Of a stretch of 64,000 bases of DNA, positions 50,772 to 64,000 are shown in pieces. A model generated the notes under the pieces. It was not told the DNA's origin, ran no database searches, and saw only the letters and a list, made by a program, of their open reading frames with translations. Source of the DNA: Cyanobacteria bacterium FACHB-DQ100. GTDB taxonomy: Bacteria; Cyanobacteriota; Cyanobacteriia; Leptolyngbyales; Leptolyngbyaceae. Where the stretch lies: contig JACJNW010000035.1 of NCBI GenBank assembly GCA_014695195.1, positions 62,001 to 126,000 on the forward strand, read 5' to 3'. Within the stretch, counting starts at the first letter, position 1; every line of letters begins with the position of its first letter. The position numbers and the translations under genes are program-made.

Positions 50772-51629
50772 TTATTCAATATCGTCGTGAGCAAAGCGGT
50801 TGTAAAGGAAGTCTAGCGCTTGGTTCCGCAAATCGTAGTAGAGCGGATCTTCCATCACTTGAGCACGATCGCGAGGACGAACAAACGGAATCGTGAGGAT
50901 TTCTCCGATCGTTGCTTCGGGGCCATTCGTCATCATTACTAGACGATCCGCGAGGAACAACGCTTCGTCGATATCGTGCGTTACCATCAGCACGGTACAA
51001 CCATGATCCAAGCAGATCTTTGCGAGTTCTTCCTGCAATTCTTCTTTGGTAATTGCGTCCAATGCTCCAAATGGCTCATCGAGAACCAGCACTTCAGGAC
51101 GGAGCGACAAGGCACGAGCGATCGCAACGCGCTGTCTCATCCCACCTGACATCTGAGGCGGCTTTTTCTGCGCGGCTTCCGCCAAACCCACCATCGCCAA
51201 GTGCTCGTTCACGATCGTGGTTTTCTCAGAGTTCGATTTTTGTGGGAAAACGGAATCGATCGCCAAATAAACATTCTCAAACGCAGTCAACCAGGGAAGC
51301 AGCGCATAGTTTTGGAACACCATCATGCGATCGGGGCCTGGTTTTTCAACCAGTTTCCCTTTCAGTCTCACTTCGCCTTCAGTCGGAGTCACAAACCCAG
51401 AAACCGTGTTCAGCATCGTGGACTTACCGCAACCAGAGTGACCGATCACACAGATAAACTCACCCTGCTTCACGTCAAGATGAATATCTTTAATGATCGT
51501 TTGAGGCCCGGTACGAGTGTTATAGACCTTAACGACATTCTTTAAAGTAAGAAACGGTTGGGTCAACGATGATTGAACAGAAGTAATGGTACCTGATTCT
51601 GTTGTGTTCATGGCAATGGGGAGATTCAT
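50772..51629 (-). CDS. nrtD: Nitrate ABC transporter, ATP-binding subunit NrtD
   Basis: A 285-residue ABC ATPase: Walker A GHSGCGKSTML, VFQNYALLPWLTAFENV, signature MSGGMRQRVAIARAL, Walker B VLVLDEPFGALD, and H-loop VTHDIDEALFLADRL. The PEATIGEILTIPFVRPRDR segment and C-terminal YDLRNQALDFLYNR are NrtD/NrtC family marks. It pairs with NrtC to drive nitrate (and nitrite) import. Last gene of nrtABCD, followed by a terminator. Confidence 0.94.
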   Translation of the reverse strand: MNLPIAMNTTESGTITSVQSSLTQPFLTLKNVVKVYNTRTGPQTIIKDIHLDVKQGEFICVIGHSGCGKSTMLNTVSGFVTPTEGEVRLKGKLVEKPGPDRMMVFQNYALLPWLTAFENVYLAIDSVFPQKSNSEKTTIVNEHLAMVGLAEAAQKKPPQMSGGMRQRVAIARALSLRPEVLVLDEPFGALDAITKEELQEELAKICLDHGCTVLMVTHDIDEALFLADRLVMMTNGPEATIGEILTIPFVRPRDRAQVMEDPLYYDLRNQALDFLYNRFAHDDIE

Positions 51630-51702
51630 AGAGATGAAGCTGTGAGGTTATGAATGTGGACATTGGCGAGAATCAGGGGCATTCGCAATGCCCCAATTCA
51701 AC

Positions 51703-53676
51703 CTAAGCAGTGGCTCTTGCGGGTTGCAGAGCAATCTCTGCCATTGTGTAGTCCCGCCTGATCGCTAAGCTGTTGAGGTAAGCGATCGGGTCTTCCGCAT
51801 TGAAGGGAACGCCATCAAACAATTCGATTTTGTTGCGGGCGTAGCTCAGTTCTGCCAGACCCAACTCCCGCGCTGCTGTACTAAACACATCGACGCGGCA
51901 GGTTTTTTCCAATACTTCCACCCAGTTGCGCGGCAGAGGAATGTCACCCCATCGCGCCATCTGCGTCATGATCCAGAGATGCTCAGTCCGGCTCGGACGG
52001 TTCGCGCCTTCGCCGAAGAAGAGATGATGGGCTGGATCAGAAGTTCCTAACCCTAGCTGAATATACTCTACCTGAGTTGCAACATATTCTTTACGCGACA
52101 GGATTTGACGAATCTCGGTCGTGTTTTCTGGATTGGCACAGTAGCGGCAGGCTTCGAGTAACGCTTTCACCAGGGCAATGTGCGTATTCGGGTATTTTGC
52201 TGCCCATTCTTCACGCACACCGAGAACTTTACCGACGTGACCGCGCCAGATATCGATATCCGATGCGATCGTGGTGCCAACGCCTTCGCGCTCTGCCCTG
52301 AGGTTCCACGGGTCGCCGACGCAGAATCCATCGATCGTGCCTGCTTTTAAGTCCACTACCATTTGCGCGGGGGGAATGATTTGCAGATGCACTTGGTGAT
52401 CGGGGTCGATTCCGGCAGAAGCTAACCAGTAGCGGAGCAGCAGATTGTGCATCGAGGAGGGATGAACCACGCCGAAGCGGTGTGGATTTTCGGGAGAGCG
52501 CTCAACCATTGCTTTGAAGCTTTCCAAGGAATCCACGCCTTGTTCTTGGAAGCGGCGATCGAGGGTGATGCCATTCCCATTACGGGTCATTGTTAATGAC
52601 GTAACTACTGTGGGGTTATCATTGCGCTCATTGCCACCGAGTGTAATCCACAGAGGCATTCCAGCAGGCATCTGAGCCGCATCTAAGTAGCCAGCAGTCA
52701 TACCGTCTACAATGCCGCGCCAGCTTGTTTCCCGTGCCAACGACACTTCATCGAGACCATGCTTTGTAAAGAAGCCTTTCTCTTTTGCAACCGCTAGCGG
52801 AGCGCAAGCGGTGAGCGGCACAAAGCCGATTTCGAGGTTGACTTTCTCTAAGCCATGTCGCGCAACCGTTGCAACTTTCTGCGCTCGGATTTTCTTCACG
52901 CGCTTTTGCTGGTTCAAGAAGTAGATCAGTTCGCTCCGCAAGCTGTAATAGCTAGGGTGCTTCACCACTTCCATCCGTTTACGCGGACGCGGAATATCGA
53001 CATCGAGAATGTTGCCAATCTTGGAACTTGGCCCGTTGGTCAGCATGACGATGCGATCGCTGAGCAACACTGCCTCATCCACATCGTGCGTCACCATGAC
53101 GGCGGTGACTTGGTTCTCTTCACAGATCTTGATCAATTGCTCCTGTAGGTTGCCTCTGGTCAAAGCATCCAACGCACCGAACGGCTCATCAAGCAACAGC
53201 AGCTTGGGCTGAATTGCCAGACCCCGAGCGATCGAAACCCGCTGCTTCATCCCGCCGGAAATTTCGTGCGGATACTTGTCGATCGCGTGTCCGAGTCCGA
53301 CTAATCTGATGTACTTCTCGGTCAGTTCTACACGCTCTTGGGGCGATTTCTCAGTCAGCACTTCATCCACTGCCAATCCGACGTTCTCGCGTACCGTTAA
53401 CCACGGTAAGAGCGAGTAGTTTTGGAACACAACCATGCGATCGGGGCCGGGTTGCTTTACTGCCAGTCCTTCTAGGGTGACAATGCCGCCGGTTGGACTA
53501 TCCAAGCCTGCAATCATATTCAGCAGCGTGGACTTACCGCAACCAGAGTGACCGATCAGCGAAATGAATTCGCCCTTTCTAATCTGTAAATCGATGCCTT
53601 TGAGTGCTATGTACTCTTGTCCACCCGGAAGCGGAAACGACTTGTCAACCTGTTCAACAGAAACAAAACTGCTCAT
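51703..53676 (-). CDS. nrtC: Nitrate ABC transporter, fused ATPase/substrate-binding regulatory subunit NrtC
   Basis: A 657-residue protein with two parts. Residues 1-260 are an ABC ATPase (GHSGCGKSTLLNMIAG, ISGGMKQRVSIARGL, LLLLDEPFGALD). Residues 280-657 are an NrtA-like domain (LEIGFVPLTACAPLAVAKEK, WITLGGNERNDNPTVV, DGFCVGDPWNLRAEREGVG). In NrtC this domain is known to sense cytoplasmic nitrogen status and inhibit uptake when ammonium is present. The fusion is typical of cyanobacterial nitrate/nitrite transporters. It lies 22 bases after nrtB. Confidence 0.95.
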   Translation of the reverse strand: MSSFVSVEQVDKSFPLPGGQEYIALKGIDLQIRKGEFISLIGHSGCGKSTLLNMIAGLDSPTGGIVTLEGLAVKQPGPDRMVVFQNYSLLPWLTVRENVGLAVDEVLTEKSPQERVELTEKYIRLVGLGHAIDKYPHEISGGMKQRVSIARGLAIQPKLLLLDEPFGALDALTRGNLQEQLIKICEENQVTAVMVTHDVDEAVLLSDRIVMLTNGPSSKIGNILDVDIPRPRKRMEVVKHPSYYSLRSELIYFLNQQKRVKKIRAQKVATVARHGLEKVNLEIGFVPLTACAPLAVAKEKGFFTKHGLDEVSLARETSWRGIVDGMTAGYLDAAQMPAGMPLWITLGGNERNDNPTVVTSLTMTRNGNGITLDRRFQEQGVDSLESFKAMVERSPENPHRFGVVHPSSMHNLLLRYWLASAGIDPDHQVHLQIIPPAQMVVDLKAGTIDGFCVGDPWNLRAEREGVGTTIASDIDIWRGHVGKVLGVREEWAAKYPNTHIALVKALLEACRYCANPENTTEIRQILSRKEYVATQVEYIQLGLGTSDPAHHLFFGEGANRPSRTEHLWIMTQMARWGDIPLPRNWVEVLEKTCRVDVFSTAARELGLAELSYARNKIELFDGVPFNAEDPIAYLNSLAIRRDYTMAEIALQPARATA

Positions 53677-53698
53677 GTGCTTATTCTCCCTCTAGAAA

Positions 53699-54523
53699 TT
53701 ACTGTTTAACAATGAGGGACTGAATCCAGCCCACGAAGCGATCGAGCAACAAACCCACTGCACCGATATAGACCAACGCCAGAATCACTTCACTGATGTA
53801 GTTGTTCTGATACGCTTCCCAGATAAAGAAACCGATTCCCACAATCCCGGACATCACGATTTCTGCCGCGATAATTGCCAGCCATGCAAGACCGATCGAG
53901 ATTCTCATGCCAGTAAAGATGTAAGGCAGCGCAGACGGCAGCAAAATCTTGAAGAAGTATTTTTTCGGCGAGATTTGCAGCACTTTTGCAACGTTGTTGT
54001 AGTCCTGAGGAATTTCTTTGACACCAACTGCGGTGTTAATCAAAATGGGCCAAATGGCAGTAATGAAAATCACGAACAATGCAGCAGGCTCGTTCTTTTG
54101 CAGTGCAGCCAGCGAAATTGGCACCCATGCCAACGGCGGAACGGTACGCAGGAACATAAAGAGCGGATCGAGGGCTTTTGAGATCAGAGGCTTTGTGCCT
54201 ACGAGAATTCCGATCGCAACTCCCACAATCGCAGCCGCAGTGTAGCTAAATGCAACCCGTTGCAGACTCGCGAAGGTTTGCCAGAAAATCCCTTTATCGG
54301 TGCCACCGCGATCGAAGAACGGATATAACAGCAGTTCTCGTGTCCGCTCTTCTGTCCACAGGCTTGATGGCGGCGGCAGAAGAATTACTTTCGCCGCCGA
54401 AAGCAATTCCCAAACGATTAAGAAGATTGCGATCGCAATCAAAGGCGGCAAAATTTCTTTGCCGATCTTCGCAAAATTAATTCCGCCCAATCCTGCTCTA
54501 CTCTTCCCCAACGTAGCTGTCAT
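53699..54523 (-). CDS. nrtB: Nitrate ABC transporter permease NrtB
   Basis: A 274-residue permease with about six helices. The EAA loop region IPQDYNNVAKVLQISPKKYF and KILLPSALPYIFTGMRISIGLAW, followed by AAEIVMSGIVGIGFFIWEAY, are the NrtB/SsuC-type permease pattern. ATG 54523 is preceded by AAGGAG at 7 bases; the open frame to 54553 is rejected. It lies between nrtA and nrtC. Confidence 0.94.
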   Translation of the reverse strand: MTATLGKSRAGLGGINFAKIGKEILPPLIAIAIFLIVWELLSAAKVILLPPPSSLWTEERTRELLLYPFFDRGGTDKGIFWQTFASLQRVAFSYTAAAIVGVAIGILVGTKPLISKALDPLFMFLRTVPPLAWVPISLAALQKNEPAALFVIFITAIWPILINTAVGVKEIPQDYNNVAKVLQISPKKYFFKILLPSALPYIFTGMRISIGLAWLAIIAAEIVMSGIVGIGFFIWEAYQNNYISEVILALVYIGAVGLLLDRFVGWIQSLIVKQ

Positions 54524-54575
54524 GTCGATTCTCCTTACTGCAAGTGAGTGCAAACATCTTTCGTCCTAGTCGCAA

Positions 54576-55934
54576 CTAGGCTTTCAAACTCTTGAACTTC
54601 AAACTGTCAAGATACGCCTGCGGTTTTGTTGGATCAAATTCCGCGCCATCAAAAAACTTTTCAACTCCACGCGATGACTCTTGTGGAATTTCTGCTTGTG
54701 CCACTCCCATTTCCCGAGCGGCTTCTTTCCAAAACTTCTCGCCGTTGACTTCGTTCACAATGCGATCGGCTTCTCCGAGTGCGCCCTGCGGCAGGAATCC
54801 CCAGCGTACACTTTCAGTGAGGAACCACAGATCGTGGCTCTTATAGGGATAAGACACGCTGCCTCTGCCGTCCTTCCAGTATTTGACCGCGAGTTCTGGG
54901 TTGTTCTCGGTTTTCTGGGTGTCGCCTAACTGATACTGTCCCGCATAAGGCCCACGTAGGAAGTCGGGCGGAACATTGAAGAACTTACGCTGCGCTAAGA
55001 TCCGAGAGAGTTCTTCTTTGTTTTCTGGCTTGTCGCACCACATCTGAGCTTCCATCACCGCTTTGAGGACAGCTTTGGTTGCTTTCGGGTGTTTCTCGAT
55101 CCATTCTTTGCGAACTGCGAGGTATTCTTCAGGGTGATATTGCCAAACTTGTGCCGTTAAGACAGCGAGGAAGCCGACACGATCGCGCACGATCCGGTAG
55201 GGCCAAGGGTCACCTGTGCTAAAGGCATCCATTGTTCCCGTTTTCATGTTGGCAACCGTCTGCGCGGATGGAACTGCCATCAAATTGATTTCAGTGTTTG
55301 GGTCAATACCGTTTGCTGCCATCCAGTACCGAATCCAAAAGTCTTGGTTCACCTTGGGAAACGTATAAGCGGCTCTAAAGGGTGTCCCTGCCTTTTTCAG
55401 CTCGCGAATGTAATCTGCTCCACCAGATTTTGCCAGGTTTAACTCGAAGCCTTTGCCAATGTGAGTGTTTGCAACTGCAACTCCGTTGCCATGCGTACAA
55501 AGCTGCGATAGAACAACCATTGGAATCTTACGGTTTCCTTTGGTGATCAATCCTTCACTCAACAGATGGGGGATTGGCATTTGCCATTGTCCACCGTCGA
55601 TACCGCCATTGGCTGAGCCGAGTTCAGCATTATCGCGAGCTGCTCCCCACGACGGCTGTTTAGAAAGTTCTACATTCGCCATGCCATACCGAGCGAAGAA
55701 TCCTTTTTCTTGAGCAATAATCAAGGGAGCAGATTCAACGATCGCAATATAACCGAGTTTGATCCGAGTGGTTTCGGGCTGTTCAGCTGGCGAAAGTGAA
55801 AGAACTTGCGCTTTTGGGGACATATCGGACGGAGAAGGGGGAGTTAAGGTACACCCTTTTAGTGCAACGGCTCCGGCTGCTGCACTAGCCGTCCATAAGA
55901 ACTTTCGGCGAGTCAAGAAGTCGAATTCGGTCAT
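54576..55934 (-). CDS. nrtA: Nitrate-binding lipoprotein NrtA
   Basis: A 452-residue periplasmic binding protein. The N-terminus has a twin-arginine-like [21 protein letters not shown] with a lipobox Cys28, so it is a membrane-anchored lipoprotein, possibly Tat-exported. Binding-domain blocks include [57 protein letters not shown] and [13 protein letters not shown], all NrtA-like. It heads nrtABCD; neither nirA upstream nor narB downstream is present, unlike in many cyanobacteria. Confidence 0.95.
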
Positions 55935-56745
55935 GGTCGAGTCTCCAAGGATAGCAAGGCTTCTCCCACGACAAATCAGACGCGATCCGCGGGGAGGTTC
56001 ACAAGCAGCAATGGCTCGTTGCAGACTGACTCAAACTCAATCGTTCAGCGTTCAACTTAGTCAAGTTGGCAAGTTTGAAGTTGCTAAATTGGATTGAAAT
56101 GAATCGTCAGAAAGGACGAATCATGCTTGCGTATTTTTACGAGGAAATAGCTGTTTTGAATGCGATAGAAACGATTGATTTAAGTCAATTGTTTCTATTT
56201 GTCTTTCTACTTGTTCCAGTAACCATTCGATTGAATGTATTAAATTCAATGTTTGGATTGAAATAAGATTATCGTCTTTGTGGACGTGCGTCTAGTGAAA
56301 AAACAGTTGGAACTAAAGAAATTCTAAATTCAAACAATAAGAAATTTAACTTCATTCAAACTGTACCTCTGATTAGTATCGAGATGAATAGATAGTTGAG
56401 CGATTTTGCGTCATTTCTTGGCGGATTTTCTAATCGTTGAATTGATCGAATTAAAGTATAGAAATCTTCCTTTGTTTGTTTAGAACTAAATCAATTGCTG
56501 CGATCGCAAGCCCTACTCAGCCAAAGGATTTGTGAGTGAGACAAGGCGCTAGGGATTGAATACGCTGCTTTCGGCATCAGGGTAATAAAAACGCGGCGCG
56601 ACGTTTGTTTCTAAAGCTCTGCTAATTGCTAAGTTAAATTACGGGTTTGAAATATTTTATAATTCGTCTTTTGACGGAAGAAATTTCTGGCGACAGCATG
56701 GGTAGGAGTGAAATGGCTCACTTGTTGACGCTTGTGAAATGAACG
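55935..56745. other. Long intergenic region upstream of nrtA, 811 bases
   Basis: AT-rich leader and promoter region for nrtA (minus strand). It contains a possible NtcA-type promoter at 56334-56376. The plus-strand frame 56066-56266 (66 codons) has a hydrophobic end but no other support. HIP1 octamer at about 56500. No RNA gene recognised. On the right it borders the petJ remnant. Confidence 0.55.
56334..56376 (-). promoter_or_regulatory. Possible NtcA-activated promoter of nrtABCD
   Basis: Read on the minus strand, CTA-N8-TAC (56376-56363) matches the NtcA consensus GTA-N8-TAC except for one base. A -10 box TATTGT (56339-56334, TANNNT) follows after 23 bases, the class II spacing known for NtcA promoters (about 22). 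The site lies about 400 bases from the nrtA start, which would make a long leader. Position and spacing support it; the imperfect half-site does not. Confidence 0.4.
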
Positions 56746-56940
56746 ATGAAAAAGATAATTCAAATGATGAGAACACTGCTAGCTACGATCGCGCTATCTA
56801 TCTTGTTTTTATTGGCAAGTGTGAATCGCTCTGTTCTAGCCGCAGATGATACGACGGGCGCGAAGGTTTTTGCTCAAACTGTGCCGCTTGCTATGCAGGT
56901 GGTAAGCGGATTTAGGAATTCAGCACTGTATAAAGGTTAA
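56746..56940 (+). pseudogene. Cytochrome c6 (petJ) remnant, frameshifted and truncated
   Basis: The frame begins with a cytochrome c6-like signal peptide (to about residue 32, VLAADD) and TTGAKVFAQ, as in mature PetJ. It then reads nonsense, but shifting by one base at about 56875-56879 gives NCAACYAGGKRI and then TAG. This is the haem motif CxxCH with His changed to Tyr. So one base was lost in the A run (CAAAC for CAAAAC), the axial histidine is gone, and the rest of the protein is missing. It cannot bind haem normally. Confidence 0.7.
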
Positions 56941-56985
56941 GGTAGAGATCTTGTCTGACTTTTCTGAATTCCCAAATCTGTAGTT

Positions 56986-58026
56986 ATGTGGCGTAAATCA
57001 ATCTTAGAGTGGCTGAAACATCGTCCTTGGCTATTCGTGCCGTTTCTGGCATTGATTCCTCTAGCTGGGCTGTACTTAAGTCAACACACTCAAACCGAGG
57101 CAAAATCTGTACCGGCTCCGGCTGCTGCGTCGCCAAGTCCTACACCGATTGTGCTCTCCTCGCCTCTGCCACAGCCAAGCCTTAAACCTTCTCCAAAATC
57201 AACCTTAACGCCGATCGACCCGAAGAAATATACAAAAGAACAAGCCGCTATTAATGAGCGATCGAAAGCCGCATTTGCCGCATCCGTAGGAACCGTGGAT
57301 TCGCTGATTGAGATGCAGGTAGCGATCGCAATGGGGCAGCCCACAATTTCGATTACTGCCTCTCAAGGGGCGACAATTTCAGGTGCAGAGGGTCGATCGC
57401 TAAGTCAGCTTGCGGCAGGAAATCCTTATACCATTCAGGCAGCAGGCGACCAGATCAGTTTTGGCAATGGACAGTTGCCGGGAATGGTAATGATTCAGCC
57501 TGCACCGAATGGAGTGCTGTATTTGGGTGACAAGCCGTATCGAGGGCGCTTTTTGTTAGCGGCGCAGGGTGGGCGAATTTGGGTCGTCAATTATATTGAT
57601 CTACGTCACTATCTCTATAGTGTGGTTGCGAGTGAAGTGTCGCCCAGTTGGAACAAAGAAGCCCTGAAAGCACAGGCGGTTGCGGCACGATCGTATGCGC
57701 TGACTTATTATTTTCGACGGGCGCAACCGCTCTATCACATGGGGTCGGACGAGTATTTTCAGGTCTATAGCGGAATATCGCGGGAATCAGAACGCACGAA
57801 TCGAGCCGTGGATCAGACTGCGGGTGAATTCATTAGCTACAGGGGCGGGATTGTCGAGTCGCTGTATGCTGCCTCAGATGACATTGTTGCGGAGGCGTTT
57901 CGCGGTCGAGGAATGAGCCAGCTTGGTGCATTGGAACTCGCAGAAAGCGGACATACCTATCGGCAAATTTTAGCGCGGTACTATCCGAAAACCGGAATTG
58001 CGAGGATTGAGCAAGACCACGAATGA
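56986..58026 (+). CDS. SpoIID/LytB domain protein
   Basis: A 346-residue envelope protein. A single N-terminal membrane segment (about 15-33, PWLFVPFLALIPLAGLYLS) is followed by a Pro/Ser-rich linker (40-80). The SpoIID/LytB domain then includes RGRFLLAAQGGRIWVVNYIDLRHYLYSVVASEVSP, ALKAQAVAARSYAL and GRGMSQLGALELA. SpoIID is a lytic transglycosylase of denuded peptidoglycan; cyanobacterial homologues are assumed to act on the cell wall. In this copy the YFQVYSG segment near the active site is present. Confidence 0.88.
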   Translation: MWRKSILEWLKHRPWLFVPFLALIPLAGLYLSQHTQTEAKSVPAPAAASPSPTPIVLSSPLPQPSLKPSPKSTLTPIDPKKYTKEQAAINERSKAAFAASVGTVDSLIEMQVAIAMGQPTISITASQGATISGAEGRSLSQLAAGNPYTIQAAGDQISFGNGQLPGMVMIQPAPNGVLYLGDKPYRGRFLLAAQGGRIWVVNYIDLRHYLYSVVASEVSPSWNKEALKAQAVAARSYALTYYFRRAQPLYHMGSDEYFQVYSGISRESERTNRAVDQTAGEFISYRGGIVESLYAASDDIVAEAFRGRGMSQLGALELAESGHTYRQILARYYPKTGIARIEQDHE

Positions 58027-58072: not shown

Positions 58073-58360
58073 CTACTTGTCTCGGTGCGATCGCCCTTTG
58101 TACCATCCGATCACATATCCAATCACGCCTGCCCCGATCGCAGCTTGAGTCGCAAATAGGAGGCTTTCAATTTCGGGGCTTGCAGGCTCGAATAAAGGCT
58201 TAAGCCAGGGTTGGTAAGTGGGGTGACTGTTTTGAATCGCGGCTTCTGCTTGACCGTCTGAACCGCTAAACTCACCCCGGACAAACACTAACGGGAAAGC
58301 TGCGAGACTGACAACGGCGATCGCAAGTAACCAATTTTGTCGAGCTAAAGAGCGTTTCAT
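58073..58360 (-). CDS. cbiN: Cobalt transport protein CbiN
   Basis: A 95-residue small membrane subunit with two helices (about 9-28 and 66-86) and between them the family pattern [17 protein letters not shown]. CbiN works with CbiM to load Co2+ in the ECF-type CbiMNQO system. Its start overlaps the CbiM stop by ATGA (58357-58360). No cbiQ or cbiO follows; the next gene is SpoIID on the other strand. Confidence 0.92.
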
Positions 58361-59103
58361 TGCTTAATCAGGTTTAAGGTTTCTAATTCACTGCGGTTGT
58401 AGGTTTGTAGCCAGTTCCAAACTAATACCGTTAACAGTCCTTCGCTAATGGCTAATGGAATCTGCGTGAAGGCAAAAATTCCGGCAAACTTGAGAAATGC
58501 TGCCCAAACGCCACCGGATGCGGCGGGAAATGCTAATGCCAGTTGAAAGGAAGTTGTGACATACGTAAGTAAATTCTCTAAAGCGGAAGCAAGGAAAATC
58601 GCTGCTTTTTGATGACCTGTTTTTAAAATCAGATGATAGACCGCATAAGCAATGAAGGGGCCGACGATCGCCATCGAAAACAAATTTGCTCCGAGGGTTG
58701 TGATTCCTCCGTGTGCCAACAAGACTGCCTGAAACAGCAGCACCAATCCACCGAGTACGGTCATCACCGAAGGGCCAAACAAAATTGCGCCGAGTCCGGT
58801 TCCGGTCGGATGTGAACAACTTCCGGTGACAGATGGAATCTTAAGTGCAGATAGAACAAACGCGAATGCTCCTGCCAGCGCTAAAAGCAACTTCAATTCT
58901 GGAGTTTGGCGGGTGATACGGGTGAGCGATCGTAATCCGATTAAGAAGAACGGCAGCGAAATTGCCCACCACAAAGCCGCCCACTGAACAGGTAAAAATC
59001 CTTCTGCAATGTGCATTGCCTGTGCAGGAGCGGCGGCACCGATCACTAGATACAAACTTAGCCCTGCCATTGCAGCAAGGCTCATCCATTTTTTAGTCTT
59101 CAT
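58357..59103 (-). CDS. cbiM: Cobalt transport protein CbiM
   Basis: A 248-residue membrane protein of the cobalt ECF S-component type. A cleavable signal peptide (1-29, ending PAQA) precedes [17 protein letters not shown], so cleavage would expose the Met-His N-terminus needed to bind Co2+ in CbiM. Further family blocks are [20 protein letters not shown] and [19 protein letters not shown]. It follows a cobalamin riboswitch and starts at ATG 59103, the frame being open farther upstream through the riboswitch. Overlaps cbiN. Confidence 0.94.
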
Positions 59104-59136
59104 TCTGTACCTCGCAGAACTTTGAGAACGAAAAAG

Positions 59137-59245
59137 CTGGCGGGCATTCTGACTGGAGATAATTCTCTTCACAGTTGCGGGACAGCGGCAGATTTGCACT
59201 GCTCTTTCCCCGTTTCCTCGATCGACTGATCCTCAGATCGAACCA
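59137..59245 (-). promoter_or_regulatory. Cobalamin riboswitch upstream of cbiMN
   Basis: On the minus strand the leader contains GAAAGAGCAGTGCAAATCTG, then GCCGCTGTCCCGCAACTGTG (the B12 box and its partner), then AGTCAGAATGCCCGCC. These are the hallmark conserved segments of the AdoCbl riboswitch. It ends about 35 bases before the cbiM ATG, so it probably controls translation or termination of cbiMN in response to cobalamin. Boundaries are approximate. Confidence 0.92.
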
Positions 59246-61340: not shown

Positions 61341-63230
61341 TTAGGAGTCGACCGCTACCTCTATTAGTGTCTCTGGCTCTGGTGTTGGCTCATTGAGCGC
61401 GATCGTAAACGTCTTCGAGGTGGTGTCACTACCGCCGTTTGCCGTGCCGCCATTGTCCTTCAGCGTGACCGTCACCGTTGCGGTTCCTGCCTTTCCTGCC
61501 GGAGTGTAGCTGAGCGCTCCAGTTTCCGGGTCGATCGTCGGCTGTCCATTCGTCGTAAACAATCCAGCATTATCGACTGTAACCTCATAAGTCAAGGTTT
61601 CGTTCGACTCATTCGGTGCCCCTTTGGTGACGTTAGTGAGGAAACCATTCACCGCTTGAGTGCCTGCGCTCACGTCAACCGATTGGTTTTCCCCGAGCGT
61701 GAAGGTTGGTGCTTGGTTCACGGACAGGACGGTGGTGCCGATCGATGTGGTTGTGCCTGAGAACGCGCTTGTTCCTCCATTGCGGCTCACATCTTGTCGA
61801 ACAGGTGTGACAATCGTAGTTGGCATGGGTGGCATTACAATGCTACCCATCATGTAGCCACCCCTGAGGATTGTGGTTACTGTAGAGAAGCTTCCGGTGT
61901 AGGTGTTGTCGATCGCCCGAATCGTCAAACTATCGGGAGTGCCGTTATAGAACTGAGTCGGCTGAAAGCGCAGTTTCGTCGTCGCGCTCAGGATCAGCGC
62001 ATTGCTATCCGACACTGTACCCACCTCGCGCCAATCTATGCCATTCGTCGAATAATCCCACCAGCCTTGAGTGGTTGGAGCAGTGTTACCCACGATCGCA
62101 ATGCCTTTCAAGCTGGAATTGGTATCTGGATCGCTGAACTGATTGCTCAAGAGGGTGGAGATTGCTTCTCCAGCAGTCACCGCATTCTCCAGAATCGAAC
62201 CGAGAGATACATCTGCACCAAGTGAAGGAGCCGTGTTAAATGACAACTTCAGCGTCGTGGTCACGGCTGCACTGTCTGTGAAACTGTCAGCTACCACAAC
62301 CGAGAAGACGCGATCGCTCTTGTCCGGGTTGAGTGCGGTATTGCTGTATGAAATGCGTTTCAGTGCGGCTTCGCAATCTGCAAATGAACCAGCGCCAAAG
62401 AGGGTGAGAACTCCGGTGCTGGCGTTGTAGGTGCTGGCAATCAAGGAACCTGCGTGATCGTAGGTTAGCCTTTCATCGGCTCCATCCTTGAGGTTGGTAA
62501 TGCTCACCCTTACAAGCGCTAACTGTGTAGAATCGGGGTCTGCGATCGAGGGTGTACCAGTGATCACTGGAGCGCTGCCTTGCGACTGCTCATAGGTGCC
62601 AATGGTTGTACTCGATAAGGTGAACTGTGGCGCAATGTTCGCAAACAGATCGATCTTCGCCGTTATGGTTGTCAGGTTTGTGTTGGTCACTTGGAAATAG
62701 TATTTGCCGGGAGCCAGTGGCTGAGACGGTTCAAGCATGAACTCCTTGCCTTCCGCATTCAGCACCTTCGTCTCCAGACCCGGAACCTCTAAGTTATAGA
62801 GGAGGGCTTGCGGCTCATTGACGGTGAAAGTATAGAAGTTTGAGCTACCAGGCAGAATCGAATCAGTGAAGCTCGCATCTTTACTCGGCACACCAATATT
62901 GAACGCAGTGTCGATCGACACACCACCCAACGGCATCAACATTGGTTCAGCATACTGAGAAGTCACGCTAACAATTTGCCACTCACTGCCTACCTTAGGT
63001 GCATCAATGAATGTGCCAGACAGAAACTTTGTGCCATTAAAGAACCATGCTGCCATTTCGTTGGTCGCACTGTTGCGCCAGATGAAATGCGGATCATTGC
63101 CCACTTGAGCAACTTCTGTCAGTTCCCATTCTCCGCCCACTTTGGGTGCATCAAAGAATCCACCATCCACGACAGACCCACTCGCATGACCGTCCAGTAT
63201 GCCGTTTCGCTGCTGGCTGCATTGCGCCAA
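61341..63230 (-). CDS. Large surface protein, C-terminal part: PPC-like and Ig/cadherin-like domains
   Basis: The downstream frame of a secreted repeat protein. It starts inside the WRNxx..TAYW repeat region (DGGFFDAPKVGGEWEL and IWRNSATNEMAAWFF), continues with a pre-peptidase-C-like domain (SFTDSILPGSSNFYTFTV, LAPGKYYFQVTN), and then several Ig/cadherin-like modules (GSFADCEAALKRISYSN, TVTVTLKDNGGTANGGSDT). It ends TPEPETLIEVAVDS. The listed ATG is not the true start: the same protein continues in another frame from about 63200 upward (next entry). Probable role: cell-surface or exoprotein adhesion. Confidence 0.75.
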   Translation of the reverse strand: MAQCSQQRNGILDGHASGSVVDGGFFDAPKVGGEWELTEVAQVGNDPHFIWRNSATNEMAAWFFNGTKFLSGTFIDAPKVGSEWQIVSVTSQYAEPMLMPLGGVSIDTAFNIGVPSKDASFTDSILPGSSNFYTFTVNEPQALLYNLEVPGLETKVLNAEGKEFMLEPSQPLAPGKYYFQVTNTNLTTITAKIDLFANIAPQFTLSSTTIGTYEQSQGSAPVITGTPSIADPDSTQLALVRVSITNLKDGADERLTYDHAGSLIASTYNASTGVLTLFGAGSFADCEAALKRISYSNTALNPDKSDRVFSVVVADSFTDSAAVTTTLKLSFNTAPSLGADVSLGSILENAVTAGEAISTLLSNQFSDPDTNSSLKGIAIVGNTAPTTQGWWDYSTNGIDWREVGTVSDSNALILSATTKLRFQPTQFYNGTPDSLTIRAIDNTYTGSFSTVTTILRGGYMMGSIVMPPMPTTIVTPVRQDVSRNGGTSAFSGTTTSIGTTVLSVNQAPTFTLGENQSVDVSAGTQAVNGFLTNVTKGAPNESNETLTYEVTVDNAGLFTTNGQPTIDPETGALSYTPAGKAGTATVTVTLKDNGGTANGGSDTTSKTFTIALNEPTPEPETLIEVAVDS

Positions 63231-64000
63231 ACTAACTGTGTGTTGTCTCCCAGAATCAGTTCATCAAGCAGCTTCCAATTCGAATTGCTGCCGAGGGCCG
63301 CCGTGTTAGTAAAGAAGCCACCGCTCGCTATAGCCAAACTGTCATTGATTGTCCAATATGCGGTCTGATCTCCTACCGCATCACGCCACAGCAATCTCAA
63401 ATCGTCGTTAACGATGTTGGCATCGATGAGTTGCCAGTTCGAGTTGCTACCGAGTTTCGGCGCATCTTTGATGAACCCGCCGTCTATAAAATTGTCGTTT
63501 ACATCGACTGTCCAAGTAGCTGTTTCATCTGTTACACCATTGCGCCACACCAAGATGCGATCGCCCCTGTCGTTTGGTGTGTTGACCGCGCCAATTAGTT
63601 TCCAGTCGGAATTGCTGCCGAGTTGCGGGGGATTGTTGACAAACGCACCGTCTACTGAGCTGGTTCGATCTAAATTCCAAAAAGCAGTTTGATCGGCGAG
63701 CGAGTTGCGCCAAACGATCGAGCTTGAGATGCCAGGTTCAGCAAATAACGACAAATCGTAGCTACCTGCATCTGAGGTCGAGACGGTTAGCGTGTAAGTG
63801 CCTGGATCAAGAATGCGGGTAATGCCATCGGTAATCTTGCCTGGATTGTTTGAGGTGATTTCCAGATCGCTACCAGTCTTCGTGAGTTTGAGATTTGAAT
63901 CGCCGTCGAGACTCGATAAGATTGCGTTGAAACTACTTCGTCCTCTAACCTCGAAGTTGTAGGTCTCAGTAGATAACGGAACGGGTCTTTGAAATTCTTT
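63119..64000 (-). CDS. Large surface protein, upstream frame (runs off window)
   Basis: The upstream frame of the same protein. From the window edge it reads a pre-peptidase C-terminal-like domain (FEVRGRSSFNAILSSLDGDS, ILDPGTYTLTVSTSDAGSYD), then four repeats of about 45 residues: VWRN/LWRD...TAFW/ATW/AYW...DGGF...PKLGSNSNWQL. At about 63190-63215 the repeat pattern jumps from this frame (AYWTV) to the next (GHASGSVVDGGFF), so there is a frameshift or sequencing error. Without correction the frame ends at 63119 with AENGN. The tail repeats resemble FG-GAP/VCBS-like or tectonin-like surface repeats; I cannot be more exact. Confidence 0.75.
   Translation of the reverse strand, partial: KEFQRPVPLSTETYNFEVRGRSSFNAILSSLDGDSNLKLTKTGSDLEITSNNPGKITDGITRILDPGTYTLTVSTSDAGSYDLSLFAEPGISSSIVWRNSLADQTAFWNLDRTSSVDGAFVNNPPQLGSNSDWKLIGAVNTPNDRGDRILVWRNGVTDETATWTVDVNDNFIDGGFIKDAPKLGSNSNWQLIDANIVNDDLRLLWRDAVGDQTAYWTINDSLAIASGGFFTNTAALGSNSNWKLLDELILGDNTQLVWRNAASSETAYWTVMRVGLSWMVDSLMHPKWAENGN

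Follow-up and report, generated by a model that had tools for sequence, protein, structure and literature searches.

The segment from 56746 to 56905 of the window, the 64,000-nucleotide stretch of DNA analysed here, is almost certainly a pseudogene of a second cytochrome c6 gene (petJ2), the loss of which was probably tolerated through redundancy. The window lies on contig C35 of the host genome (G000; 5.5 Mb, 99.92% complete). The first-pass annotation had described the 64-aa open reading frame at 56746–56940 (+), which is present exactly as given there, as a dying petJ. This description is borne out by an intact petJ at the syntenic place in six of seven congeneric genomes that we compared, and by product-abolishing lesions in the window copy that include a 193-bp deletion. 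The comparison set (G001–G007) includes Phormidium tanganyikae FI6-MK23 (G001), Leptolyngbya sp. Prado105 (G005) and FACHB-63 (G007). The remnant, left by a redundant paralogue in a known gene family, is a pseudogene of an ordinary kind, and our literature searches listed no paper on the petJ2 locus.

When the ORF was used as a query against 58 genomes, its best outside matches lay in six of the seven same-genus genomes. Residues 1–44 align with the six intact petJ proteins at 49–65% identity (E = 6e-9 to 2e-6 per genome), and the ATG and signal peptide of the remnant align with those of the orthologues. In all six, the match covers the beginning of an intact petJ that encodes 115–118 aa, with NANCAACHAGG and a terminal Trp. 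A petJ2 orthologue scored up to 116.5 bits against solved cytochromes c6 (2v08), and the orthologues have the c6-type Gln (QVTNGK). The window copy resembles cytochromes c6 of the PF13442 kind in its signal peptide, its N-terminal GAKVF and the CXXC spacing that follows the frameshift; it differs from them in the frameshift itself and in lacking the haem His, the Met-ligand region and the C-terminal half.

The genes around petJ2 are also shared. The divergent flank of the intact gene holds a cmpA orthologue in G001, G003, G004 and G006; in G002 and G005 its place is taken by a cmpA/nrtA-type paralogue of 60% identity. On the other flank, G001, G002, G004, G005 and G006 carry a same-strand gene for a SpoIID-domain protein; in G003 this side is hidden by contig ends, petJ being at the end of one contig and the SpoIID gene at the end of another. 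In our reading, petJ2 was inherited vertically and was functional in the ancestors of the genus. We rejected the idea that petJ commonly adjoins a SpoIID gene: a petJ of the petJ2 type was found at 3 of 32 named loci (L085, L087 and L088). One locus in that survey (L084) is FACHB-63, several end early upstream (including L086), and the remaining loci show no petJ of this type. Separately, G003 has a further petJ2-like gene (L168, 854–1258, minus strand), with TTTTACAAGCTGTC approximately 240 bp upstream.

The 5' remnant at 56746–56899 (+), delimited by alignment with the orthologues, retains the start codon, the signal peptide and the N-terminus up to a damaged haem motif. One base has been lost within 56874–56879, where the orthologues read TTT AAT GCR AAY TGY and the window aligns as TTT GCT CAAAC TGT. 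The first-pass annotation was right about the single-base loss, but its placement in the A run is the less likely one. The missing base is more likely the G of the conserved Ala codon, which would need fewer changes; loss from the A run, though possible, implies a further change. Past this point the DNA reads C-A-A-C-Y, as the first-pass annotation had noted: the codon of the former haem-ligand His (56892–56894) is TAT (Tyr) in the window and CAT in all six orthologues. The Cys codon ahead of it is TGC in the window and TGT in all six. The coding end is indeed gone, as also claimed there, but through an internal deletion that spares the original stop codon and the 3' flank. The deletion, with its junction at 56899–56900, measures 193 bp against each of the six orthologues, extends to the last Trp codon, and removes the axial Met region and the C-terminal half. 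The last Trp codon (TGG) and the original stop codon TAA (56903–56905) survive at 56900–56905 (TGGTAAGCGGATTT), out of frame with the 64-aa ORF. The old 3' flank (56906–56985) aligns with the 3' flanks of the orthologues and of FACHB-63; it is partly read as the tail of the ORF and supplies its final residues (GFRNSALYKG). In the intact orthologues, the two ends of the deleted segment are TGG in G001, G004 and G006, and CGG versus TGG in G002, G003 and G005. The few bases common to the joined ends suggest that the deletion may have arisen through slippage or end joining at short homology.

The window copy lacks the features of a working cytochrome c6. There is no in-frame CXXCH, since the frameshift precedes the motif and the His codon reads TAT; the axial Met and C-terminal half fell within the deletion, as did the position of the Gln equivalent to residue 52 of Arabidopsis c6A; and neither Pfam nor NCBIfam gives the 64-aa product a family match above the cut-off. 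In the host lineage, petJ2 lost one base, exchanged its haem His for Tyr and shed 193 bp, probably between short imperfect repeats, leaving a remnant whose product would be unable to bind haem or to fold as cytochrome c6. Two observations count against death of the gene: the promoter core is preserved, and dN/dS in the 5' part is not raised. Over the 34 codons before the frameshift, which are few, the ratio is 0.09 against G001 and 0.27 against G003, showing no rise over the 0.11–0.32 found among intact petJ2 copies. Synonymous sites were saturated against G004 and G006, which gave no ratio, and neighbouring genes served as controls. The unraised dN/dS and the kept core indicate that the death may be recent or that the 5' part may still be used, although 34 codons decide little.

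We considered two explanations under which there would be no pseudogene. An assembly or sequencing error could hide an intact petJ in this strain, and single-base errors are possible in this assembly because there is a second frameshift in the window, near 63119–63230, in a region that the sister genome reads as a single uninterrupted frame of 1306 aa. However, an error would have to account for three separate lesions, one of them too large to come from any single-base error, and the 193-bp deletion together with the sister genome, which also lacks the gene, rules it out as the whole explanation; we regard it as exceedingly improbable. The 64-aa ORF could instead encode a functional small secreted peptide in which the signal peptide of petJ has gained a new tail. 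Such a product would still have its start codon, its signal peptide and the promoter core, and the unraised dN/dS of the 5' part would suit it. Yet the tail comes from out-of-frame reading of the old 3' flank and matches no family, and the sister genome has no counterpart, so that this idea, too, is very improbable.

The first-pass annotation had expected either a second intact petJ or reliance on plastocyanin alone. A genome search for petJ and petE found that the host has kept both, side by side on contig C22, with c6B/C-like and cytM-like genes besides. The petE gene is intact, and petJ1 starts 94 nt downstream; the gene upstream of petE is one that we take to be psbV-like. PetJ1 has CSACH, NAMPAF and the c6-type Gln (QVINGK), and it scores up to 109 bits against solved cytochromes c6. 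This arrangement is general, in that each of the eight genomes has one plastocyanin gene and all eight have a CXXCH-IGG petJ after petE (the start codon was not resolved in G002). PF13442 finds three proteins in the host genome: PetJ1, C35:189298 and C28:245985, the last presumably cytM-like. The C35:189298 protein has CAGCH, and among solved structures it is best matched by 4eie and 4eif. PMC8358224 separates c6 from c6A/B/C by the Gln that corresponds to position 52 of Arabidopsis c6A; under that rule C35:189298 is a c6B/C protein, since Ile replaces the Gln (IITNGK). No transposed intact copy of petJ2 was found elsewhere in this 99.92% complete genome. The loss of petJ2 was probably tolerated because petE, petJ1, and the c6B/C-like and cytM-like genes remain. 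As a side observation, PetJ1 (L001, 1432–1824, minus strand) continues for approximately 14 residues past the usual terminal Trp (AGWSTARVEPTEQISGI), and similar C-terminal tails are seen in five other genomes.

Upstream of the remnant, 56655–56700 (+) holds the putative core of the old petJ promoter (GTCTTTTGACG, starting at 56666, ... GACAGCATG), to which we assign this role from its conservation. GTCTTTTGACG precedes petJ2 in all nine cases examined, which comprise the six intact orthologues, the dead gene and two other genera. Together with the GACA that follows, it occurs once each in six of the eight genomes, always at petJ2 and including the host. This combination is absent from G007 and from G003, where GACA reads GCCA. 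The pattern GTCTTTTGACGN{8,20}GACA was derived from these promoters and therefore finds them by construction; the reversed control also gave six matches. Retention of the core in a dead gene is consistent with a gene that died recently or with a promoter that serves the SpoIID gene. At 56655–56668, TTTTATAATTCGTC precedes the core in place of the TTTTACAANCNGTC block of the relatives.

FACHB-63 bears on the timing of the loss. In a tree of the eight genomes built from five proteins, it forms one clade with the host (100% ultrafast bootstrap), and it has no petJ at the locus, the whole gene having been lost. Its leader is homologous to that of the window over 600 bp at 82%, fading within the old promoter, and the homology picks up again exactly at the former stop codon (GGTAGGCGG). 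The 130 nt to the left of that stop codon gave no above-shuffle alignment to the remnant, to intact petJ or to the deleted part (six comparisons with 500 shuffles; at least 129 of 500 shuffles reached the observed score in each). The intervening stretch is single copy in FACHB-63 and is not a repeated element, apart from three short matches at chance level across the three genomes that were searched.

Two further proposals are compatible with a pseudogene. One concerns timing rather than identity: a single shared deletion could have killed petJ2 before FACHB-63 split off, with FACHB-63 later losing the remainder. Both genomes of this clade lack petJ2, and in both the homology to the orthologues resumes at the same stop codon. 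On the other hand, to the left of that point FACHB-63 resembles the remnant and intact petJ no more than shuffled sequence does, and the dN/dS of the window remnant, which is not raised, suits a separate and recent loss of function. We give a shared deletion slightly less than an even chance. The other proposal is that the promoter of the dead gene was kept to drive the downstream SpoIID gene, as part of a former petJ2-spoIID transcription unit. The core is unchanged in the window, and in all five genomes in which one contig carries both an intact petJ2 and the SpoIID gene, the two adjoin on the same strand. Because the SpoIID gene is still intact in the sister genome, which lacks the core, we think this proposal rather unlikely. 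Under either proposal the window copy of petJ2 would still be a pseudogene.

The regulation of petJ2 can be approached through more distant relatives. At two loci from two other genera (L041 and L042), the closest petJ adjoins BlaI-type and M56-type genes, which look like a PetR and PetP pair; at L041, which matches Myxacorys almedinensis, a SpoIID gene is also near petJ. In Synechocystis, according to the commentary PMC7896320 and the review PMC13421787, PetR activates petJ and represses petE when copper is low; with copper present, PetR is degraded by PetP. The synteny of petJ with petR/petP-like genes in the relatives makes petJ2 look like the copper-regulated c6 gene. In the host, petR and petP are adjacent and intact on contig C39, away from petJ2, and they are also adjacent and intact in FACHB-63; pN/pS between the two genomes is 0.09 for petR and 0.11 for petP.

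The TTTTACAANCNGTC block may be part of this regulation. It or a near form lies upstream of the petJ2 TTGACG, and in four relatives an exact copy overlaps the likely –35 region of petE. These are the positions expected of activator and repressor sites, respectively, and they are no more than suggestive of PetR binding. We found 13 exact matches in the eight genomes, compared to 11 for the reversed control. Six of the 13 are at petE or petJ2 promoters, and a seventh is approximately 240 bp from the extra petJ-like gene of G003. The left arm at petE matches TTTTACAANCNGTC without mismatch in G001, G003, G004 and G006, with three mismatches in G002, five in G005, five in the host and six in FACHB-63. 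Symmetry between the left and right arms is 8 of 14 in the host and 6 of 14 in FACHB-63, versus 10–12 in the other six genomes. Decay of the block at petE is not exclusive to the host and FACHB-63, because G005 is also five mismatches off. The lineage of these two strains could have partly dismantled the copper switch by losing its PetR-type c6 gene and letting the petE block degrade, while petR and petP, under purifying selection, would serve another purpose or a residual site. We consider this unlikely. If true, a single unit would supply both carriers independently of copper, because the only remaining c6 gene lies directly behind petE.

The present case resembles the PetRP-regulated petJ of Synechocystis (Garcia-Canas et al. 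2021, as described in the commentary PMC7896320) in that the closest petJ of L041 and L042, which has the same GTCTTTTGACG core as petJ2, sits beside petR- and petP-like genes. It differs in that the host petR and petP are located away from their presumed target, which is dead. Another cyanobacterial lineage that has lost petJ is the spheroid body of Rhopalodia gibba (PMC2246100). In that case petJ has gone together with petE, amid a loss of photosynthetic genes, whereas our host lost only a redundant paralogue. The petJ2 remnant alone is one more decayed paralogue. The two sister strains, however, amount to a natural experiment, in that they lack the petJ of the PetRP-linked type and yet retain petR, petP, petE and the petE-linked petJ. 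They bear on whether the petE-linked c6 gene can replace the usual copper switch.

The divergent neighbour of the remnant (54576–55934, minus strand), named nrtA in the first-pass annotation, is instead cmpA, encoding a bicarbonate-binding protein: in a phmmer search of PDB it scored 569.9 bits against CmpA (2i48) and 411.2 bits against NrtA (2g29). Based on these substrate-binding protein scores, the ABC transporter operon at 50772–55934 (–) is more likely cmpABCD (bicarbonate) than nrtABCD (nitrate). NCBIfam counts against this by naming the permease and ATPase after nitrate, though no bicarbonate-named model was among the matches. The cmpA leader (55935–56460) has no Rfam family at the gathering threshold. 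It contains several blocks conserved in five genomes, including a hairpin at 56164–56199 (16-pair stem) and AATAAGATTATCGTCTTT; the conserved blocks are possibly regulator sites or a leader RNA. On the other side, the intact gene for the SpoIID/LytB-domain protein (56986–58026, plus strand) is 79–90% identical in all seven other genomes. It is followed at 58073–59199 (–) by what we take to be a CbiM-like gene and a small CbiN-like gene. Further along, the minus-strand ORFs 61341–63230 and 63119–63754 overlap at 63119–63230 and correspond to the single 1306-aa ORF of the sister genome (L176, 960–4880). The repeat protein at 61341–63754 is broken here by either a small indel or an assembly error.
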